Source: Thermoanaerobacterium xylanolyticum LX-11
Lineage (GTDB): Bacteria > Bacillota > Thermoanaerobacteria > Thermoanaerobacterales > Thermoanaerobacteraceae
DNA length: 64,000 nucleotides
Reading direction: 5' to 3'
Assembly (NCBI RefSeq): GCF_000189775.2
Contig: NC_015555.1
Location: 82,501 to 146,500 of the forward strand
In this document: one piece after another, positions 1 to 6,513 of the stretch
How positions within the stretch are numbered: position 1 is the first letter of the stretch
Layout of the letters: every line of letters starts with the position of its first letter
Position numbers and translations under genes: made by a program
The notes under the pieces: model-generated
Databases searched by the model: none
What the model saw: only the letters and a program-made list of their open reading frames with translations
What the model was told of the DNA's origin: nothing

Positions 1-62
1 AAGTGGAAAAGGAAGTAGGATTTCCAAGACAACCAGGATGTTGGCTTAGAAGCAGCCATACA

Positions 63-94
<32 letters not shown>

Positions 95-801
95 AAATCC
101 CGCGCCGAAAATAAACGGGGCTAAAACATGCCACCGAAGCTACGGATTCTAAAGAAAGAATGGTAGGGGAGCGTACTGTACAGGACGAAGGACAAGCGAA
201 AGCGAATCTGGACAGTACAGTAGAGAGAATGCCGGTATAAGTAACGAGAGTAAGGCGAGAAACCTTACCGTCGAAAGCCTAAGGATTCCTGGGGAAGGAT
301 AATCCGCCCAGGGTAAGTCGGGACCTAAGCCGAGGCGAAAGCGTAGGCGATGGAGAACCGGTAATAAATCCGGTACCACCGAAATCCGTCAAAAGAGAAG
401 CAAGGACGCAGCGAGATAAGAAAAGCGTGCGGTTGGTAGAGCACGTCCAAGCAGCGACGAAAAGAGCTTTGAGTGAAGTACCAAAGCTCATAAGAGCTGT
501 GAAGGGGAGCCGAAAGGCGAAGTTTCGAAGGGGCTGCCAAGAAAAGTTGCTATCGAGGATAAGGTGCCCGTACCATAAACCGACACAGGTAGGCGAGGAG
601 AGAATCCAAAGACGAGCGGGAGAACCCTCATTAAGGAACTCGGCAAAAAGACTCCGTAACTTCGGGAGAAGGAGTGCCGAAAGGCCGCAGAGAAGAGGCC
701 CAAGCGACTGTTTACCAAAAACACAGGTTTCTGCTAAGTCGAAAGACGAAGTATAGGAGCTGACGCCTGCCCGGTGCTGGAAGGTTAAGGGGAAGGGTCA
801 T

Positions 802-1108
802 CCGGCACTCAACTATACCTATTAGGAGTGAAAGAAATGTATTATGTCTATATAATAAAGAATGAAGATGGAGGCATATATACAGGCTATTCAGAGAATA
901 TAAAGAAAAGAGTAGAAGCTCATAATAAAGGACTAAACAAATACACAAAAGGGCATAAATGGGAACTAATCTACTATGAAGCATATAAAGCAAAAGAAGA
1001 TGCCCAAAAGAGAGAAAAGCAATTAAAAAAATCTCATAATGCAAGAAGATGGTTAAAAGAAAGAATAGCCAAAAGCATAAACTCTTAGTAGATAGAGTTG
1101 AGTGCCGG
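802..1108 (+). mobile_element. 23S rRNA intervening sequence 1 (helix 68 tip) carrying a GIY-YIG gene
   Basis: This is a 307-nt insertion in 23S rRNA. Its ends are perfectly complementary over 12 bp (802-813 CCGGCACTCAAC with 1097-1108 GTTGAGTGCCGG). Pairing continues inward with mismatches through CTATACCTA / TAGATAG. The insertion sits where other 23S genes have the small loop of helix 68 (E. coli about 1860-1880). Terminal hairpins of this kind are typical of bacterial rRNA intervening sequences cut out by RNase III without religation. That it is excised is inferred. No group I or II intron core was recognised. The ends match those of the second insertion at 2029-2120. Confidence 0.9.
837..1088 (+). 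CDS. GIY-YIG endonuclease-like protein encoded inside 23S rRNA
   Basis: An 83-residue protein of the small GIY-YIG family (UPF0213, YazA/YhbQ-like). Residues 2-7 (YYVYII) and 14-18 (IYTGY) form the GIY and YIG strands. Arg25, His29, Asn30 and Glu48 sit where the family places its catalytic residues, and the C-terminal third is strongly basic. The ATG at 837 is preferred because AGGAG at 824-828 lies 8 nt upstream; a GTG at 828 overlaps that site. The gene occupies nearly all of the insertion between its terminal stems, and its TAG falls just before the 3' stem. By analogy with homing endonucleases it could promote spread of the insertion, but small GIY-YIG proteins also occur as free-standing genes of unknown role. 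Translation from an rRNA precursor is unproven. Confidence 0.85.
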   Translation: MYYVYIIKNEDGGIYTGYSENIKKRVEAHNKGLNKYTKGHKWELIYYEAYKAKEDAQKREKQLKKSHNARRWLKERIAKSINS

Positions 1109-1121
1109 AGAAGCTCTGAAC

Positions 1122-1216
<95 letters not shown>

Positions 1217-1467
1217 CTTGGGCGCTGTCTTGAAGGGGGACCCGGTGAAATTGTAGTACTCGTGAAGATGCGAGTTACCCGCGACAGGACAGAAAGACCC
1301 CATGGAGCTTTACTGCAGCTTGTCACTGAATTTTAGTAATATCTGTACAGGATAGGTGGGAGGCAGAGAAATATGGGCGCCAGCCTATATGGAGCCAACG
1401 TTGGGATACCACCCTGATATTACCGAAATTCTAACATAGGAGCCGTAAACCGGCATATGGACACTGA

Positions 1468-1505
<38 letters not shown>

Positions 1506-1711
1506 AGTAACGGAGGCGTCCAAAGGTTACCTCAGCGCGGAAGGAAATCGCGCGAAAGAGTGCAAAGGCAGAAGGTAGCCTAACTGCGAGAAAGACAATT
1601 CGAGCAGGGACGAAAGTCGGGCTTAGTGATCCGGCGGTAGAGAATGGGATTGCCGTCGCTCAACGGATAAAAGCTACCCTGGGGATAACAGGCTGATCTC
1701 CCCCAAGAGTC

Positions 1712-1855
<144 letters not shown>

Positions 1856-2028
1856 TCGCGGGCGCAGGAAATTTGAGAGGATCTGCCCTTAGTACGAGAG
1901 GACCGGGGTGGACAAACCGATGGTGTACCAGTTGCAAAGCCATTTGCACAGCTGGGTAGCCAAGTTTGGAAGGGATAAACGCTGAAAGCATCTAAGCGTG
2001 AAACCCACCTCAAGATAAGATTTCCCAT

Positions 2029-2120
2029 CTGGCACTCAACTATACTTACTGAAGGGAAAAAGCACTATGTACAAATGTTAGGGAATAAAATAGATTACAG
2101 TAGGTAGAGTTGAGTGCCAG
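2029..2120 (+). mobile_element. 23S rRNA intervening sequence 2 (helix 98 tip), gene-less
   Basis: A 92-nt insertion near the 3' end of 23S, at the tip of helix 98 (after GATTTCCCAT, before AGTAAGACACCTTGAAGA). Its ends pair perfectly over 12 bp (CTGGCACTCAAC with GTTGAGTGCCAG). Pairing continues to 21 bp with one mismatch and one G-U pair (2031-2051 with 2098-2118). Ten of the outer bases and the inner TATAC(C/T)TA block are shared with insertion 1. The interior has a tiny ATGTACAAATGTTAG stretch (five codons) and no gene. It looks like a deleted or non-autonomous relative of insertion 1. Confidence 0.85.
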
Positions 2121-2267
2121 AGTAAGACACCTTGAAGAAGACGAGGTAGATAGGCCGGAGGTGTAAGAGTAGAAATACTTTCAGCTGACCGGTACTAATA
2201 AGTCGAGGACTTGACCTTTAGCATTGTGCAGTATTCAAAGTTCATTTAAGAAAAATGAACGAAAGAT

Positions 2268-2377
2268 TTCCGGTGGCAATAGCGGAGGTTAAAAACCCGT
2301 TCCCATACCGAACACGGAAGTGAAGCCCTCCAGCGCCGATGGTACTGATTACTCGGGAGAGTAGGTCGCTGCCGGTA
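2268..2377 (+). rRNA. rrf: 5S ribosomal RNA
   Basis: It has the conserved 5S core CCCGTTCCCATACCGAACACGG and complementary termini (CCGGTGGC near the 5' end, GCTGCCGG near the 3' end). It lies about 50 nt after 23S, as expected in a rrn operon. At about 110 nt it is slightly short because the helix IV/V arm is reduced. No tRNA gene follows it. End positions are accurate to a few bases. Confidence 0.93.
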
Positions 2378-2404
2378 AAAATTTCATATATTAGCCCCCT
2401 AAGC

Positions 2405-2432
2405 AAAACTCCTATTTAAGGAGTTTTTAATT
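2405..2432 (+). terminator. Rho-independent terminator of the rrn operon
   Basis: AAAACTCC (2405-2412) pairs with GGAGTTTT (2420-2427) around a 7-nt loop and is followed by a T-rich tract. It lies directly after 5S and before the glcK promoter. Confidence 0.8.
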
Positions 2433-2438
2433 TTTATA

Positions 2439-2467
2439 TTGACAAATTAGAAAACCTATATGAATAT
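2439..2467 (+). promoter_or_regulatory. Sigma-A-type promoter for the glcK-tag unit
   Basis: TTGACA at 2439-2444 matches the -35 consensus. GAATAT at 2462-2467 is the -10 candidate at a 17-bp spacing. It lies between the rrn terminator and the ribosome binding site of glcK. Confidence 0.6.
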
Positions 2468-2506
2468 AGAAGTATGATAAATTTAGTTTGCTTAGGAGGA
2501 GTGTTT

Positions 2507-3454
2507 GTGAAAAAGTTTGTATGCGGTGTAGATCTTGGTGGTACAAAGATAAATACAGGCATTATGGATGTGGACGGAAATATTTTGTGCAATGTGAAAA
2601 TACCTACAGAGGCAGATAAAGGACCGCAACATGTTATAAACAACATAAAGATAAGCATAATAGAATCTCTTAATAAATTGAATATAGATGTCAGTCAGAT
2701 TGAAGGTATTGGGATAGGTGCTCCAGGACCTTTGAATGCAGATAGAGGCGTGGTGGAATGTCCTCCTAATCTACCAGGATGGATTGACATCCCATTGGTG
2801 GACATATTAAAGAGAGATTTTGATACGGAGATAAAACTTAACAACGATGCTAATGCTGCTGCACTTGCTGAATATTTATTTGGTGCTGGACAAGGAATAA
2901 ATAATATTGTTTATATGACTGTAAGCACAGGTATCGGTGGTGGTGCGATAATTGATGGGAAATTGTACAATGGTGCAAATTCAAATGCTGCTGAGATTGG
3001 ACATCACACTATAAATTTTGACGGGCCTAGATGGTGCAACTGTGGCAATCCTGGGTGTTTAGAGTCGTATGCTTCTGGCACATCATTAGTTAAATTTGCA
3101 AAAAAGCATATAGAATCTGGAAGAGATACTATTCTCAAAGACAAACCTTCAGGTGAATTAAAAGCAGAAGATATTTTTGATGCTGCAAAATCTGGTGATA
3201 AATTGGCTTTAGAGCTTATTGAGAATGAAGCATTTTATTTGGGAATAGGTATTGTAAACATAATGGCATTTTATAACCCGGAAATTATAATAATAGGTGG
3301 CGGATTGTCAAGTCAATGGGATGTCTTGTATGACAAAATGATGAAGACAGTTGATGAAAGAGCATTAAAGCCAAATAGGCAGATTTGCAAAGTTGTTAAG
3401 GCAAAACTTGGTGGTAATGTGGGACTTATAGGTGCAGCATCGCTGGTACTATAA
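2507..3454 (+). CDS. glcK: ROK-family glucokinase
   Basis: A 315-residue sugar kinase that phosphorylates glucose with ATP in the cytoplasm. Evidence is the N-terminal phosphate-binding motif DLGGTK (residues 9-14), the catalytic Asp in NNDANAAALAE (about 114), and the ROK zinc motif CNCGNPGC (177-184). Length is normal for ROK kinases. GTG 2507 is chosen because AGGAGGA at 2494-2500 lies 6 nt upstream; the longer frame from 2474 has no ribosome binding site. It starts a unit with tag, about 10 nt apart. Glucokinase rather than another ROK hexokinase is the usual assignment for this clade, but substrate specificity cannot be read from sequence. Confidence 0.9.
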   Translation: MKKFVCGVDLGGTKINTGIMDVDGNILCNVKIPTEADKGPQHVINNIKISIIESLNKLNIDVSQIEGIGIGAPGPLNADRGVVECPPNLPGWIDIPLVDILKRDFDTEIKLNNDANAAALAEYLFGAGQGINNIVYMTVSTGIGGGAIIDGKLYNGANSNAAEIGHHTINFDGPRWCNCGNPGCLESYASGTSLVKFAKKHIESGRDTILKDKPSGELKAEDIFDAAKSGDKLALELIENEAFYLGIGIVNIMAFYNPEIIIIGGGLSSQWDVLYDKMMKTVDERALKPNRQICKVVKAKLGGNVGLIGAASLVL

Positions 3455-3464
3455 GGAGGAAAAA

Positions 3465-4037
3465 ATGGATAGATGTCCTTGGTGTCTTAAAGATGAAATA
3501 TACATAAAATATCATGATACAGAGTGGGGCGTACCAGTACATGACGACAGGATTCACTTTGAATTTTTAGTATTGGAATCGGCTCAAGCGGGACTAAACT
3601 GGCTTACAATACTTAAGAAAAGGAATAATTATAGAAAGGCATATAGCGAATTTGATCCACAAAAAGTTTCGCTCTTTGATGAGAAAAAAGTGCAGGAGCT
3701 TTTAAATGACGTTGGCATTATTCGAAATAAAAGAAAAATAGAATCATCTATAGCAAACGCTAAGGCCTTTTTAGAAATTCAAAGAGAATTTGGTAGTTTT
3801 GATACGTATATTTGGAGTTTCACTGATGGAAGGCCTATCATAAATTATTGGGAAAGCATTGACGAAGTACCTGCTAAAACATCATTATCTGATAAGATAA
3901 GTAATGATCTTAAAAAAAGAGGGTTTAAATTTGTGGGATCCACAATAATATATTCACACATGCAAGCGATTGGAATTGTAAATGACCATATAACATCGTG
4001 TTTCAGACATAAGGAGCTATTGCAATTTAACTCATAA
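3465..4037 (+). CDS. tag: DNA-3-methyladenine glycosylase I
   Basis: A 190-residue base-excision repair enzyme that removes 3-methyladenine from alkylated DNA. The N-terminal RCPWC and EWGVP segments and a QAGLNWLTIL stretch are typical of Tag. The zinc ligands known from E. coli Tag (Cys4, His17, His175, Cys179) occur here at exactly the same positions. The start ATG follows AAGGAGG. It lies 10 nt downstream of glcK and is probably co-transcribed; a terminator follows. Confidence 0.95.
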   Translation: MDRCPWCLKDEIYIKYHDTEWGVPVHDDRIHFEFLVLESAQAGLNWLTILKKRNNYRKAYSEFDPQKVSLFDEKKVQELLNDVGIIRNKRKIESSIANAKAFLEIQREFGSFDTYIWSFTDGRPIINYWESIDEVPAKTSLSDKISNDLKKRGFKFVGSTIIYSHMQAIGIVNDHITSCFRHKELLQFNS

Positions 4038-4045
4038 AAAAATAC

Positions 4046-4090
4046 ATGCAGGGCTTGGTGCAAAATGCACTTAGACCTGCCTTTTTTTAT
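4046..4090 (+). terminator. Rho-independent terminator after tag
   Basis: GCAGG and CCTGC arms, with an inner TGCA...TGCA pairing, are followed by seven T residues directly after the tag stop codon. Confidence 0.75.
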
Positions 4091-4121
4091 TCTTAAAATA
4101 ATATAATGTTAATAAGAAAGC

Positions 4122-4150
4122 GTATAGATACTGGTTACTATGGAAATAAT
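4122..4150 (+). promoter_or_regulatory. Sigma-F/sigma-G type promoter of csfB
   Basis: GTATA (4122-4126), a 15-bp spacer and GGAAATAAT (4142-4150) fit the forespore consensus GYATA - 15 bp - GGNNANANT at every fixed position. The csfB start codon is about 27 nt beyond the expected transcription start. In B. subtilis csfB is a sigma-F-dependent gene, so the site agrees with the neighbour. Confidence 0.7.
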
Positions 4151-4183
4151 TATATTAGAATATTATGAAAGATGGTGTAGCAT

Positions 4184-4393
4184 ATGGAAAGCATGTTAAA
4201 AACTAAAAAATGCTTTATATGCAATCATGAAAAGACAGACGGTATCGATGTATTGGGAGAATTTTTATGCAATGACTGCCAGAAAATAATCGCTCACATA
4301 TCTCCAGATGATGCAAAGTACGAATATTACAGAAAAAAGATGATAGATATCTGGCGCAACTACAAAAAAGATTTTGAATATGAGGACTGTTGA
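4184..4393 (+). CDS. csfB: Anti-sigma-G factor Gin (CsfB)
   Basis: A 69-residue zinc protein that in B. subtilis binds and holds sigma-G inactive (and later acts on sigma-E) during sporulation. Four cysteines (C10, C13, C29, C32) form the family's paired CxxC zinc site, with the usual FICxxE and FLCNDCQ surroundings. The Shine-Dalgarno site is weak, and a second in-frame ATG lies three codons in. Gene order supports the call: in B. subtilis csfB also follows an rRNA operon and precedes yaaO-tmk. A sigma-F-like promoter lies just upstream. Confidence 0.88.
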   Translation: MESMLKTKKCFICNHEKTDGIDVLGEFLCNDCQKIIAHISPDDAKYEYYRKKMIDIWRNYKKDFEYEDC

Positions 4394-4474
4394 AATATGT
4401 CCTCATATTTTTTATAGGCAATAATTAGTGTTATATGGTATTATATATGTATAATACGTGAAAAGGTGATAAAA

Positions 4475-5896
4475 TTGACAGCACCGCTTTATGAAGCATT
4501 GATTAAATATGTTGAAGACGGTACAATGCCATATCATATGCCGGGCCACAAAGAAGGGAAAATTATTTCCCGGAAATACATAGAAAACATTGCTAAAATA
4601 GATGTGACAGAAGTTCCTGGGACAGACAATCTTCACGATCCACATGGACCGATTTTAGAAGCAGAAAGACTTGCTGCCAAAGCATTTGGAGCTAAATCAT
4701 CTTTCTTTCTTGTCAATGGAACTACGTGTGGAATATATGCAGCAATGTCATCAGTCTTGAATGATGGTGATATGGTAGTTGTTCAAAGGAATTCTCATAG
4801 ATCTGTCTATAATGGATTGATACTTACTGGTGCTATACCAATTTATATAGAACCGCTTATGGACGATGAAGATGCCATAGCTATGGGTATATCCATAGAT
4901 GAACTTGAAAAGCTCCTTATAAAACATAAGAACGTAAAGGCAGTGGTCATTACATATCCAAATTATTATGGTTTTTGTGTCGATATAAATAAAGTGGTGG
5001 ATTTGGTTCATAAATACGACAAGGTATTGATAGTAGACGAGGCACATGGGGCCCATTTTGCATTTTCTGATAGATTGCCATTATCGGCATCTAAAGCTGG
5101 TGCAGATATTGTGATTGAAAGTGTTCACAAAACTTTGCCTGCATTTACGCAAAGCTCAATTTTGCATGTGAATACAGATAGGATAGATATTGATAGATTA
5201 AGGTTTTACTTAAGCCTTTATCAATCAACATCTCCTTCTTATATTTTGATGACATCAATTGATTTAGCCAGAGATTTTATGGAGAGGGAAGGCAAAGCAT
5301 TGCTTGATAAATGTTTAGATCTATCGATTCAAGCAAGAAGGCTTATCAATGAGATAGACGGTGTAAGGTGTATTGGCGATGATGTCATAGGCAAGTACGG
5401 AATTTACGATTACGATGCTACAAAGCTTACTATCAATGTAAGTGGACTTGGCATATCCGGCAGTGTGGCGGAAAGTATACTGCGAGAAAAATTCAACATT
5501 CAGATGGAAATGTCTGACTACAGAAATATACTTGCCATAATGACTGTAGCTGATGATGAAGCATCGTTTGACAAGCTAATAGAGTCTGTCAAAGGTCTTT
5601 CAGAGTACAAAAGGAACGAAAAATTAAGCTATTTTGATGGCAACGGTTGCCCAGAAATTCCTGAAATGGCTATGAAGCCAAAAGATGCGGTAAATAAAGA
5701 GTATAGATATGTAAGCATGGATGATGCTGTAGGCATGGTTTCACTTGATTATGTAATTCCATATCCACCGGGTGTTCCGCTTTTATGTCCGGGTGAACTC
5801 ATAAAAAAAGATATGGTACAATATATAAAATTACTATATAATATAGGTATAAAGGTTATTGGCATTGATAATTTAAAAATACGGGTGTGTAAATAA
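4475..5896 (+). CDS. Orn/Lys/Arg decarboxylase family PLP enzyme (YaaO-like)
   Basis: A 473-residue fold-type-I PLP enzyme related to arginine, lysine and ornithine decarboxylases. DEAHGAHF holds the PLP-binding Asp, and SVHKTLPAFTQSS holds the Schiff-base Lys. The N-terminal PYHMPGHK is the family signature. TTG 4475 is preferred to GTG 4466 because AGGTGA at 4464-4469 overlaps the latter and is well spaced for the former. It matches B. subtilis yaaO by position, just before tmk, with which it overlaps by one base. The substrate is not determined by sequence; arginine decarboxylation for polyamine synthesis is one possibility. Confidence 0.88.
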   Translation: MTAPLYEALIKYVEDGTMPYHMPGHKEGKIISRKYIENIAKIDVTEVPGTDNLHDPHGPILEAERLAAKAFGAKSSFFLVNGTTCGIYAAMSSVLNDGDMVVVQRNSHRSVYNGLILTGAIPIYIEPLMDDEDAIAMGISIDELEKLLIKHKNVKAVVITYPNYYGFCVDINKVVDLVHKYDKVLIVDEAHGAHFAFSDRLPLSASKAGADIVIESVHKTLPAFTQSSILHVNTDRIDIDRLRFYLSLYQSTSPSYILMTSIDLARDFMEREGKALLDKCLDLSIQARRLINEIDGVRCIGDDVIGKYGIYDYDATKLTINVSGLGISGSVAESILREKFNIQMEMSDYRNILAIMTVADDEASFDKLIESVKGLSEYKRNEKLSYFDGNGCPEIPEMAMKPKDAVNKEYRYVSMDDAVGMVSLDYVIPYPPGVPLLCPGELIKKDMVQYIKLLYNIGIKVIGIDNLKIRVCK

Positions 5897-6513
5897 TGTA
5901 CAAAGGAAAACTCATAACGTTTGAAGGAATAGATGGCAGTGGGAAAACTACGCAAATAAATCTGCTTAAAAAATACCTTTTGGAGATTGGACGAGATATT
6001 GTTGTTTTAAGAGAGCCTGGAGGTACAGCAATAGGCGAGAAAATCAGAGAAATACTTCTTGACAAAAAAAACAATATAGTCCCATCTGCGGAAGCACTTC
6101 TTTATGCAGCATCTCGGGCAGAGCTTGTAAAGGAAGTCATAATACCGTCATTAAATGATGGGAAAATAGTGATTTTGGACAGATTTGTTGACAGCTCAAT
6201 TGTATACCAAGGATATGCGAGAGGACTTGGTGTAGAGGTTGTAGAGGAGATTAACAGTATTGCCATAGATGGACTTGTACCTGATTTAACTGTGTACTTA
6301 GATATAAAGCCTAAAGATACCTTAATGAGAATCGACAGAAGAAAAGACAAGGATCGCTTGGAGATAGAAGATGCAGAATTTCATGAAAAAGTCTATGAGG
6401 GATATATGAAGCTTATTAAGTCAAAACCAGGCAGGTATTTTATTGTAGATGCTACGCATGATATTTACTATATACAAAAGGTTATAATTGATGAAGTAAG
6501 CAAAATTATTTAA
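5896..6513 (+). CDS. tmk: Thymidylate kinase
   Basis: A 205-residue kinase converting dTMP to dTDP. The P-loop FEGIDGSGKTTQ is at residues 9-20. DRFVDSSIVYQGYARG contains the DR(Y/F) substrate-binding motif. A basic lid stretch (RIDRRKDKDRLE) follows. Its ATG overlaps the stop of the preceding decarboxylase gene by one base, and darA follows after 13 nt, so these genes are probably translated from one message. Confidence 0.97.
   Translation: MYKGKLITFEGIDGSGKTTQINLLKKYLLEIGRDIVVLREPGGTAIGEKIREILLDKKNNIVPSAEALLYAASRAELVKEVIIPSLNDGKIVILDRFVDSSIVYQGYARGLGVEVVEEINSIAIDGLVPDLTVYLDIKPKDTLMRIDRRKDKDRLEIEDAEFHEKVYEGYMKLIKSKPGRYFIVDATHDIYYIQKVIIDEVSKII

Follow-up and report, generated by a model that had tools for sequence, protein, structure and literature searches.

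A palindrome-ended insert at the tip of 23S rRNA helix 68 encodes a minimal GIY-YIG nuclease and may be a mobile element of RNA hairpins

In Thermoanaerobacterium xylanolyticum LX-11, the tip of helix 68 (H68) of the 23S rRNA is replaced in most rRNA operons by a 303-bp insert that carries the gene for a minimal GIY-YIG nuclease. With a probability of roughly 0.58, the insert is an autonomous, palindrome-ended mobile element that has this nuclease as its only enzyme and spreads by break-and-copy into hairpin tips. This reading draws on features visible in the sequences themselves, namely the ends, the empty and filled alleles, the occurrence at several unrelated hairpin tips, the gene-less derivatives, the selection on the gene, and the flanking bases that travel with the insert. 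A wider reading is more tentative and somewhat doubtful. In this reading, the insert would represent a new class of minimal transposable elements (about 300 bp), present in several phyla, in which a single-domain GIY-YIG protein serves as the transposition enzyme and the palindromic ends co-evolve with it. Such elements would insert into genes of structural RNAs (16S, 23S, RNase P, riboswitches) and into other palindromes, taking the place of a hairpin loop each time, and their gene-less copies would be moved in trans.

The helix 68 insert and its gene

The window, i.e., the whole stretch of DNA that was analysed, spans 64,000 nucleotides. The following features of the window are relevant to the insert:

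1–2218, plus strand: 3' part of the 23S rRNA gene, host of the inserts (cmscan RF02541, 1704 bits; model positions 1061–2925)
801–814, plus strand: left end of the H68 element, TCCGGCACTCAACT (perfect pairing with 1096–1109; fold; end motif found family-wide)
804–1106, plus strand: 303-bp element (GGCACTC...GAGTGCC) at the tip of 23S helix 68 (4/5 operons filled, operon E empty)
824–828, plus strand: Shine-Dalgarno-like AGGAG, 8 nt 5' of the start codon (sequence; comparable sites in relatives by eye)
837–1088, plus strand: gene for a minimal GIY-YIG nuclease of 83 aa (PF01541, 4e-17; invariant catalytic residues; dN/dS 0.08–0.25; pLDDT 88)
1096–1109, plus strand: right end of the H68 element, AGTTGAGTGCCGGA (sequence; fold; end motif found family-wide)
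2031–2118, plus strand: gene-less 88-bp element with the same ends at the tip of 23S helix 98 (all 5 operons filled)
2269–2377, plus strand: 5S rRNA of ordinary length, without insert (cmscan RF00001)

The initial annotation described an insertion at 802–1108 with fully complementary 12-bp ends. This interval corresponds to the element at 804–1106 plus the outer CC/GG, and the insertion at the H68 tip is real. Its ends are complementary as described, but they are longer, forming 14 uninterrupted pairs (801–814 with 1096–1109); deeper inside, pairing is imperfect. The RNA spanning 770–1145 folds at −99.8 kcal/mol, whereas 100 shuffles average −66.3 (z −6.8). Four of the five rRNA operons in the genome carry the insert. 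Operon E is empty and reads ...AAGGGTCA-GGAGGAAATCC-AAAGCTC... at the same place. The element stands in place of a GC-GCAA-GC tip (approximately positions 1866–1873 in the numbering of one E. coli 23S copy, strain PC6, 2900 nt), indicating that the element has taken the place of a tetraloop tip. No intron family reaches its gathering score in positions 1–6000 of the window (cmscan), and the insert features no catalytic RNA of a group I or group II intron in that range. It has the attributes of an intervening sequence (IVS), since it sits at the tip of an rRNA helix, has complementary ends and is absent from some alleles.

The family survey covered 44 23S copies from the 13 genomes with a flank match among 20 searched (own genome included; several drafts gave no match). 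At H68, the gene is present in 11 of 41 readable copies, one of which is frameshifted, and the remaining 30 copies are empty. Filled and empty alleles coexist within one genome both in the window's strain (four filled, one empty) and in a relative, G006 (two filled, three empty). A DNA search found the H68 insert in 5 of 149 genomes, including the window's own, with two additional short partial matches, and an H68-specific pattern matched 3 of 101 genomes, again including the own. The small number of genomes matched in both searches indicates that the insert is patchily distributed. The sequence of the H68 tip itself varies between genera.

The 83-codon gene and its own Shine-Dalgarno site, both reported in the initial annotation, were confirmed at 837–1088 and 824–828, respectively. 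The same applies to the catalytic residues Y5, Y15, R25, H29 and E48 which, together with G17, are invariant across 26 aligned sequences, the window's included. The dN/dS ratio of the gene between species ranges from 0.08 to 0.25, so that the reading frame is not a product of chance; purifying selection acts on the gene. The frame is intact in three of the four copies of the genome, which encode identical proteins. In the operon A copy (G000:C1:64073-64381), one A has been lost from a run of A residues, and the frame ends at 72 aa. Within this genome, the gene occurs in rRNA only.

As predicted by AlphaFold (pLDDT 88), the 83-aa product consists of a GIY-YIG catalytic domain followed by C-terminal helices and has no separate DNA-binding domain. 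The GIY and YIG tyrosines, the catalytic Arg and Glu residues and the fold place it in the GIY-YIG family. Among solved structures, UPF0213 proteins (PDB 1zg2, 1ywl) are the nearest both by sequence (1zg2, E 8e-9) and by fold. SLX1, a structure-specific nuclease, comes next by fold, although above E 0.01. UPF0213 and SLX1 are host proteins or repair subunits and are not known from mobile elements. NCBIfam has no model for the 83-aa protein. A phage origin was considered and rejected: five stretches of viral contigs fit a pattern, none was confirmed, and the protein has no PHROG.

GIY-YIG homing endonucleases of the I-TevI type have a separate DNA-binding domain, which gives them specificity for a long site. 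The H68 system resembles these enzymes in the intact catalytic residues, in the presence of filled and empty alleles and in the co-transfer of flanks. In contrast, the H68 protein has no such domain, no intron is involved, and insertion occurs at several unrelated sites.

The same ends at other hairpin tips

The ends CCGGCACTCAAYT...ARTTGAGTGCCGG are common to the H68 element and to gene-less inserts in the same genome, at sites that we take to be 16S h6 and 23S H18 (about E. coli position 282), H25 and H98. Inserts at H18, H25 and h6 were counted on three operons, as parts of two operons read N. All inserts of the genome start with GGCACTCAA, and the opposite end is the complement, with one mismatch at H25. 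All 33 matches of GGCACTCAAYT in the genome fall inside rRNA operons, and the reversed pattern has none. Both strands of the stem retain the core GCACTCAA at H18, H25, H68 and H98, as well as in the distant relatives L125, L126 and G134 described below; the only exceptions are the mismatch at H25 and one G-T pair in L126. This core is conserved beyond the needs of folding, which suggests that it is a putative recognition site. The 40-row table of ends is biased for loci found by pattern, and is to be read without L268/L259 and L276 (RNase P, elements shorter than 28 nt); a separate list gives the ends for elements identified through insert mapping or through the gene.

At H98, the empty tip reads CGAAAG in G003 and in one copy of G006 (G006c), and filling swaps the loop, from C-GTAA-G to C-GGCACTC...GAGTGCC-G. 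Base-by-base comparison at both H98 and H68 revealed replacement of the loop and no target-site duplication. Of the 43 family copies, 5 carry an H98 element with the gene, 11 a gene-less one and 27 none. In the sister genus, gene-bearing elements with the same ends occupy H98 in all four copies of G012 and in one of the four copies of G014 (the other three are empty); the encoded nuclease is 57% identical to the window's protein. Over its first 21 nt, the window's H98 insert matches the gene-bearing insert of the sister genus exactly, and it is thus probably a relic of a gene-bearing H98 element. How gene-less copies can arise is suggested by G018, where the H98 element has a 236-bp internal deletion with GAGGA at both break points. 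Gene-less elements are found in G003, G004, G016 and G018, none of which gave a nuclease match at 0.001.

Copies with the gene and copies without it share their ends at unrelated sites, which is a MITE-like trait. MITEs and REP/RAYT systems comprise short gene-less copies with palindromic ends and rare copies with one gene, and so does the H68 family. Unlike MITEs and REP elements, its members replace a loop without target duplication (at the known empty alleles), and many copies are in structured RNA genes. Unlike in REP/RAYT systems, the gene inside the ends encodes a GIY-YIG protein, and no Y1 gene lies beside the ends in the ten regions checked.

Across the phylum, the 13-mer CCGGCACTCAAYT has 169 matches in 47 of 398 genomes, compared with 13 for the reversed control. 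Of these matches, 43 belong to the own family, 49 to G386 alone, 13 to G093 and 6 to G312. Fifty loci were read. A partner end is present in 19 of them (two of which are one site), delimiting elements of 67–134 bp. No partner end at a distance of at least 20 nt was found in 22 of the 30 loci L284–L313 and in 9 of the 20 loci L314–L333; the latter nine consist of three tiny hairpins (L316, L319, L320) and six imperfect hairpins (G093). Such unpaired matches mostly reflect chance or coding sequence. In 19 extra regions (L264–L282), a partner was detected by script in 10 and by eye, as an imperfect or very close end, in 4 (L264, L268, L276, L282), and none was found in the other 5 (L270, L271, L273, L275, L277).

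Twenty loci from the 50 read (18 paired loci plus L319 and L322) were scanned against Rfam, and 11 of them fall inside known RNAs, while 9 do not. Hosts are 23S H68 (one), 23S H98 (one), 16S h6 (two), RNase P RNA (two), cobalamin riboswitches (four) and a group II intron (one, a tiny hairpin). For instance, the cobalamin riboswitch aptamers of four genomes (L286, L287, L307, L333) contain mini palindromes with CCGGCACTCAAYT ends. The RNase P RNAs of G012, G014 and G018 feature a tiny palindrome which, by sequence context, is at the same helix tip that bears a nuclease gene in L143. G134 has four end-bounded copies outside known RNA families, none of which is spanned by a 60-codon frame, and one copy at what we take from its context to be 16S h44. 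Among 15 palindromes read outside known RNAs, 11 are not crossed by a 60-codon stop-to-stop frame and 4 are. At 1e-6, no nuclease was matched in G386 (a draft, 92% complete), G093 or G312, all of which possess copies of the ends; their mini-elements thus appear to have no visible helper nuclease.

Two observations concern individual genomes. The CCGGCACTCAAYT copies of G386 that were read (e.g., L314–L320) are located in 16S h6, in a group II intron and outside known RNAs. G012 and G016 share a multi-copy unit (L264–L267, L269, L272, L274) consisting of a palindrome and a similar GCGAGACTGAGAGGCGAAAGCGGGGC-like flank. None of its seven loci has an Rfam match at the gathering score, and the unit is possibly an unknown structured RNA or an element end.

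Relatives of the nuclease and their end types

A protein search returned 472 loci, of which the best 80 were taken. Fourteen of these 80 loci are inside rRNA genes, as determined from blastn coordinates and flanking sequence, with rRNA matches on both sides in 12 and on one side in 2 (L138, L177). Several of the 80 are rRNA-insert loci of CPR bacteria. Among the same 80, the most similar distant relatives in rRNA are again in H68 and have the same ends; these are L125 (a MAG, 65%), L126 and L128 of Lagierella massiliensis, and L167 (truncated, from a Halanaerobiales MAG). A further H68 relative with the same ends is present in two copies in G134. Lagierella carries a second GIY-YIG insert, located in H25 and inside the same ends, and the nuclease gene is known at three 23S helices, H68, H98 and H25. 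In Lagierella L128:5001-5240, a stretch within the GIY-YIG frame is scrambled relative to L126.

The gene is also found in another structural RNA. In a TA06 MAG (L143:4810-5479), a GIY-YIG gene at 5001–5228 lies within a class A RNase P RNA gene (RF00010, 215 bits), and the GIY-YIG gene of L203 is probably also within an RNase P RNA (79 bits, the gathering score being 100). Relatives of the gene are present at 1e-6 in 125 of 398 genomes of the phylum, and only 2 of 28 inspected phylum loci (L205–L232) are in rRNA, indicating that such relatives are common outside rRNA.

The flanks of 81 GIY-YIG loci (the best 80 of 472 plus L205; 75 nt per side) were searched for stems. In 37 loci the flanking stem is better than in any of 20 shuffles, and in 44 a clear inverted repeat is absent. 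Loci with end type GGCACTCAA have, with one or two exceptions in this set, Bacillota-type hosts. The remaining types resemble CCCAGCACTAA, and CCCCCACACCTTT or CCCCGCACC, respectively (mostly Patescibacteria). CCCCCACACCTTT has 28 matches in 7 of 9 genomes searched, compared with 0 for the control. Three of the nine genomes (G422, G424, G426) have palindromes in which CCCCCACACCTTT-type ends are only about 20 nt apart. In L246, near 1490–1624, two CCCCCACACCTTT-type ends separated by 120 nt enclose a sequence that by eye is tRNA-like, which would fit the capture of a tRNA gene by an element.

There is a tendency for related nucleases to have the same type of end. Four end groups, one of which is a catch-all "other", require 9 changes on a tree of 83 proteins, compared with a mean of 21.8 when shuffled, and 0 of 200 shuffles were as low. 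The tree is based on 86 columns, with 43 of 80 inner branches open and no end assigned for 41 rows, and nearly identical copies cluster of their own accord; L128, L167, L141 and rows shorter than 70 aa were left out. The three named end types alone require 4 changes, the minimum being 2. Type A alone is weakly clustered, as 18 of 500 shuffles were as low.

Spread of the element and alternative explanations

In G006, only 4 aligned positions consistently separate the filled copies d and e from the empty ones, and each of these positions is within 10 nt of the replaced tip (the comparison covers the 23S from about position 976 on), and d and e differ from each other at other positions. This pattern would fit copying of the insert between operons along with a very short flank; alternatively, one old pair of alleles may have been reshuffled by conversion. 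No flanking marker is tied to the insert in the window's genome. The filled copy of G014 shows six scattered differences, one of which is beside the insert.

According to the mechanism that we propose, the nuclease would recognise the end of the element, through the core GCACTCAA, or the extruded hairpin or branched DNA formed by it, and would nick or cut DNA at hairpin-forming tips. Repair off a filled copy would then swap the loop for the element, leaving no target duplication. The element would spread between rRNA operons by homing-like conversion and, now and then, into new hairpins, and mini-elements would be internal-deletion derivatives mobilised in trans. The RNA would still fold because the element extends the stem at the tip of an RNA hairpin, and the long hairpin probably either is cut back by RNase III or persists as a tolerated expansion.

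The initial annotation regarded the insert as a homing-type parasite of H68. The intact gene, the patchy distribution and the empty alleles beside filled ones support this part of the claim, but a special association with H68 does not hold. The annotation further suggested that the insert escapes harm through excision at the RNA level in place of splicing; this may be the case, and the features that fit it are the long hairpin and the absence of an intron match in positions 1–6000. The same ends are found at h6, H18, H25, H98 and h44, in RNase P RNA and in cobalamin riboswitches, and the gene is also in H98 in the sister genus and in H25 in Lagierella. Ends at so many hosts, and the gene at H98 and H25, are not explained by simple allele-specific homing. 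Classical homing, in which the nuclease would cut only the insertion-free H68 allele and the gene would have entered the ends of unrelated palindromic repeats, is unlikely. It would account for the presence of the closest homologues (G134, Lagierella and L125, among the best 80 of 472 plus G134) at the same H68 site, for the local co-transfer tract in G006 and for the partial occupancy of operons. However, the gene at H98 (G012, G014) and H25 always lies inside the same ends, other branches of the nuclease have other palindromic ends, one type of which also has mini copies, and the H68 tip varies in sequence between genera, whereas the usual targets of homing do not. It is quite improbable that a Y1 (IS200/RAYT-type) transposase moves the palindromes, as it does REP elements, and that the GIY-YIG gene is a passenger. 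Palindromic mini-elements resemble REPs, and 14 of 16 element-bearing genomes possess Y1 genes (frames of 263–275 aa in seven), but G134 and G312 have elements and no Y1 match. Moreover, palindromes flank the Y1 gene in none of ten regions, one of them partly N: the GGCACTCAA...TTGAGTGCC pair is missing from all ten, and two have one half-site. The differing end types, in turn, all enclose a GIY-YIG gene.

That the GIY-YIG protein acts on RNA, aiding excision of its own hairpin from precursor rRNA, with the conserved end as an RNA processing signal, seems very improbable. The end does form a stable rRNA hairpin, the core is conserved within RNA stems, and the gene of the window's genome is within rRNA only; yet elements also occur outside known RNA families, some genomes that gave no match to the gene retain gene-less inserts, and the known functions of the matching GIY-YIG folds are on DNA. 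Hardly any credence can be given to the idea that the insert is a normal clade-specific expansion segment of the 23S with an accidental frame. Other expansion segments occur in these genera, 5S rRNA included, according to one report (PMC7812874). Comparison with insertion-free 23S alleles, which the initial annotation had suggested, revealed empty alleles both in the same genome and in sister species. The empty operon E indicates that the H68 insert is not a normal expansion, and the empty alleles of both kinds, together with purifying selection on the frame, refute this explanation; the gene is moreover at three different 23S helices, and no intron family match was found in positions 1–6000.

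For decades, short insertions have been recognised at the tips of rRNA helices, and most of these encode nothing or a protein without known enzymatic function. The occurrence in one genome of gene-less and nuclease-encoding inserts with the same ends names a candidate mobilising enzyme for such inserts, and this candidate is one small, testable protein. The GIY-YIG enzyme may be the mover of a whole family of parasites of RNA genes. If this is true, part of the expansions in rRNA, riboswitches and RNase P RNA were left behind by a single kind of DNA parasite that chooses hairpins, and a GIY-YIG nuclease can work alone as a transposition enzyme.

IVSs at rRNA helix tips are already known, as are GIY-YIG genes in non-intron insertions of CPR rRNA genes, which their describers found to be sparse and judged to be outside homing (PMC11270868). 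The CPR inserts are similar to the H68 insert in that they have the same Pfam domain, lack an intron and are inside 16S or 23S genes, most at the top or base of a stem-loop. Unlike them, the H68 element is from a Bacillota-type lineage and has a conserved end common to several helices; "inverted repeat" and "palindrom" have no occurrences in the searched text of PMC11270868. Heterogeneous rRNA inserts in Thermoanaerobacter and relatives are described in PMC2672173, PMC7812874 and PMC4595116. Among the literature matches listed, none concerns rRNA fragmentation in Thermoanaerobacter, and none, PMC12455944 and PMC10293859 included, describes a GIY-YIG element that has palindromic ends or lies in a bacterial RNase P RNA. 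Judged by these matches, several features appear new: 16S, 23S, RNase P RNA and riboswitches have inserts with common ends, copies with and without the gene are coupled, GIY-YIG inserts occupy H68 and H98 outside CPR, a GIY-YIG gene lies in a bacterial RNase P RNA, and end types tend to go with branches of the nuclease tree.

The H68 insert also resembles the 23S IVSs that are excised by RNase III in Salmonella, Coxiella and others, as these are helix-tip inserts with complementary ends and no intron that vary between operons. It does not encode a four-helix S23 protein and, unlike S23-type IVSs, it encodes a GIY-YIG protein and has one conserved end sequence found at many helices. Inserts of a different kind are present in 23S helix 45 of G009 (L096) and G014 (L110), where 417–418 extra nt have ends, CAGARGTCAGATGTGAGAGGTCAGAGG, unlike those of the H68 element. 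These H45 inserts encode a protein of 118–122 aa that was identified by eye as S23-like and four-helix. In two operons of G009, the H45 insert has an internal deletion and comprises 90 extra nt.
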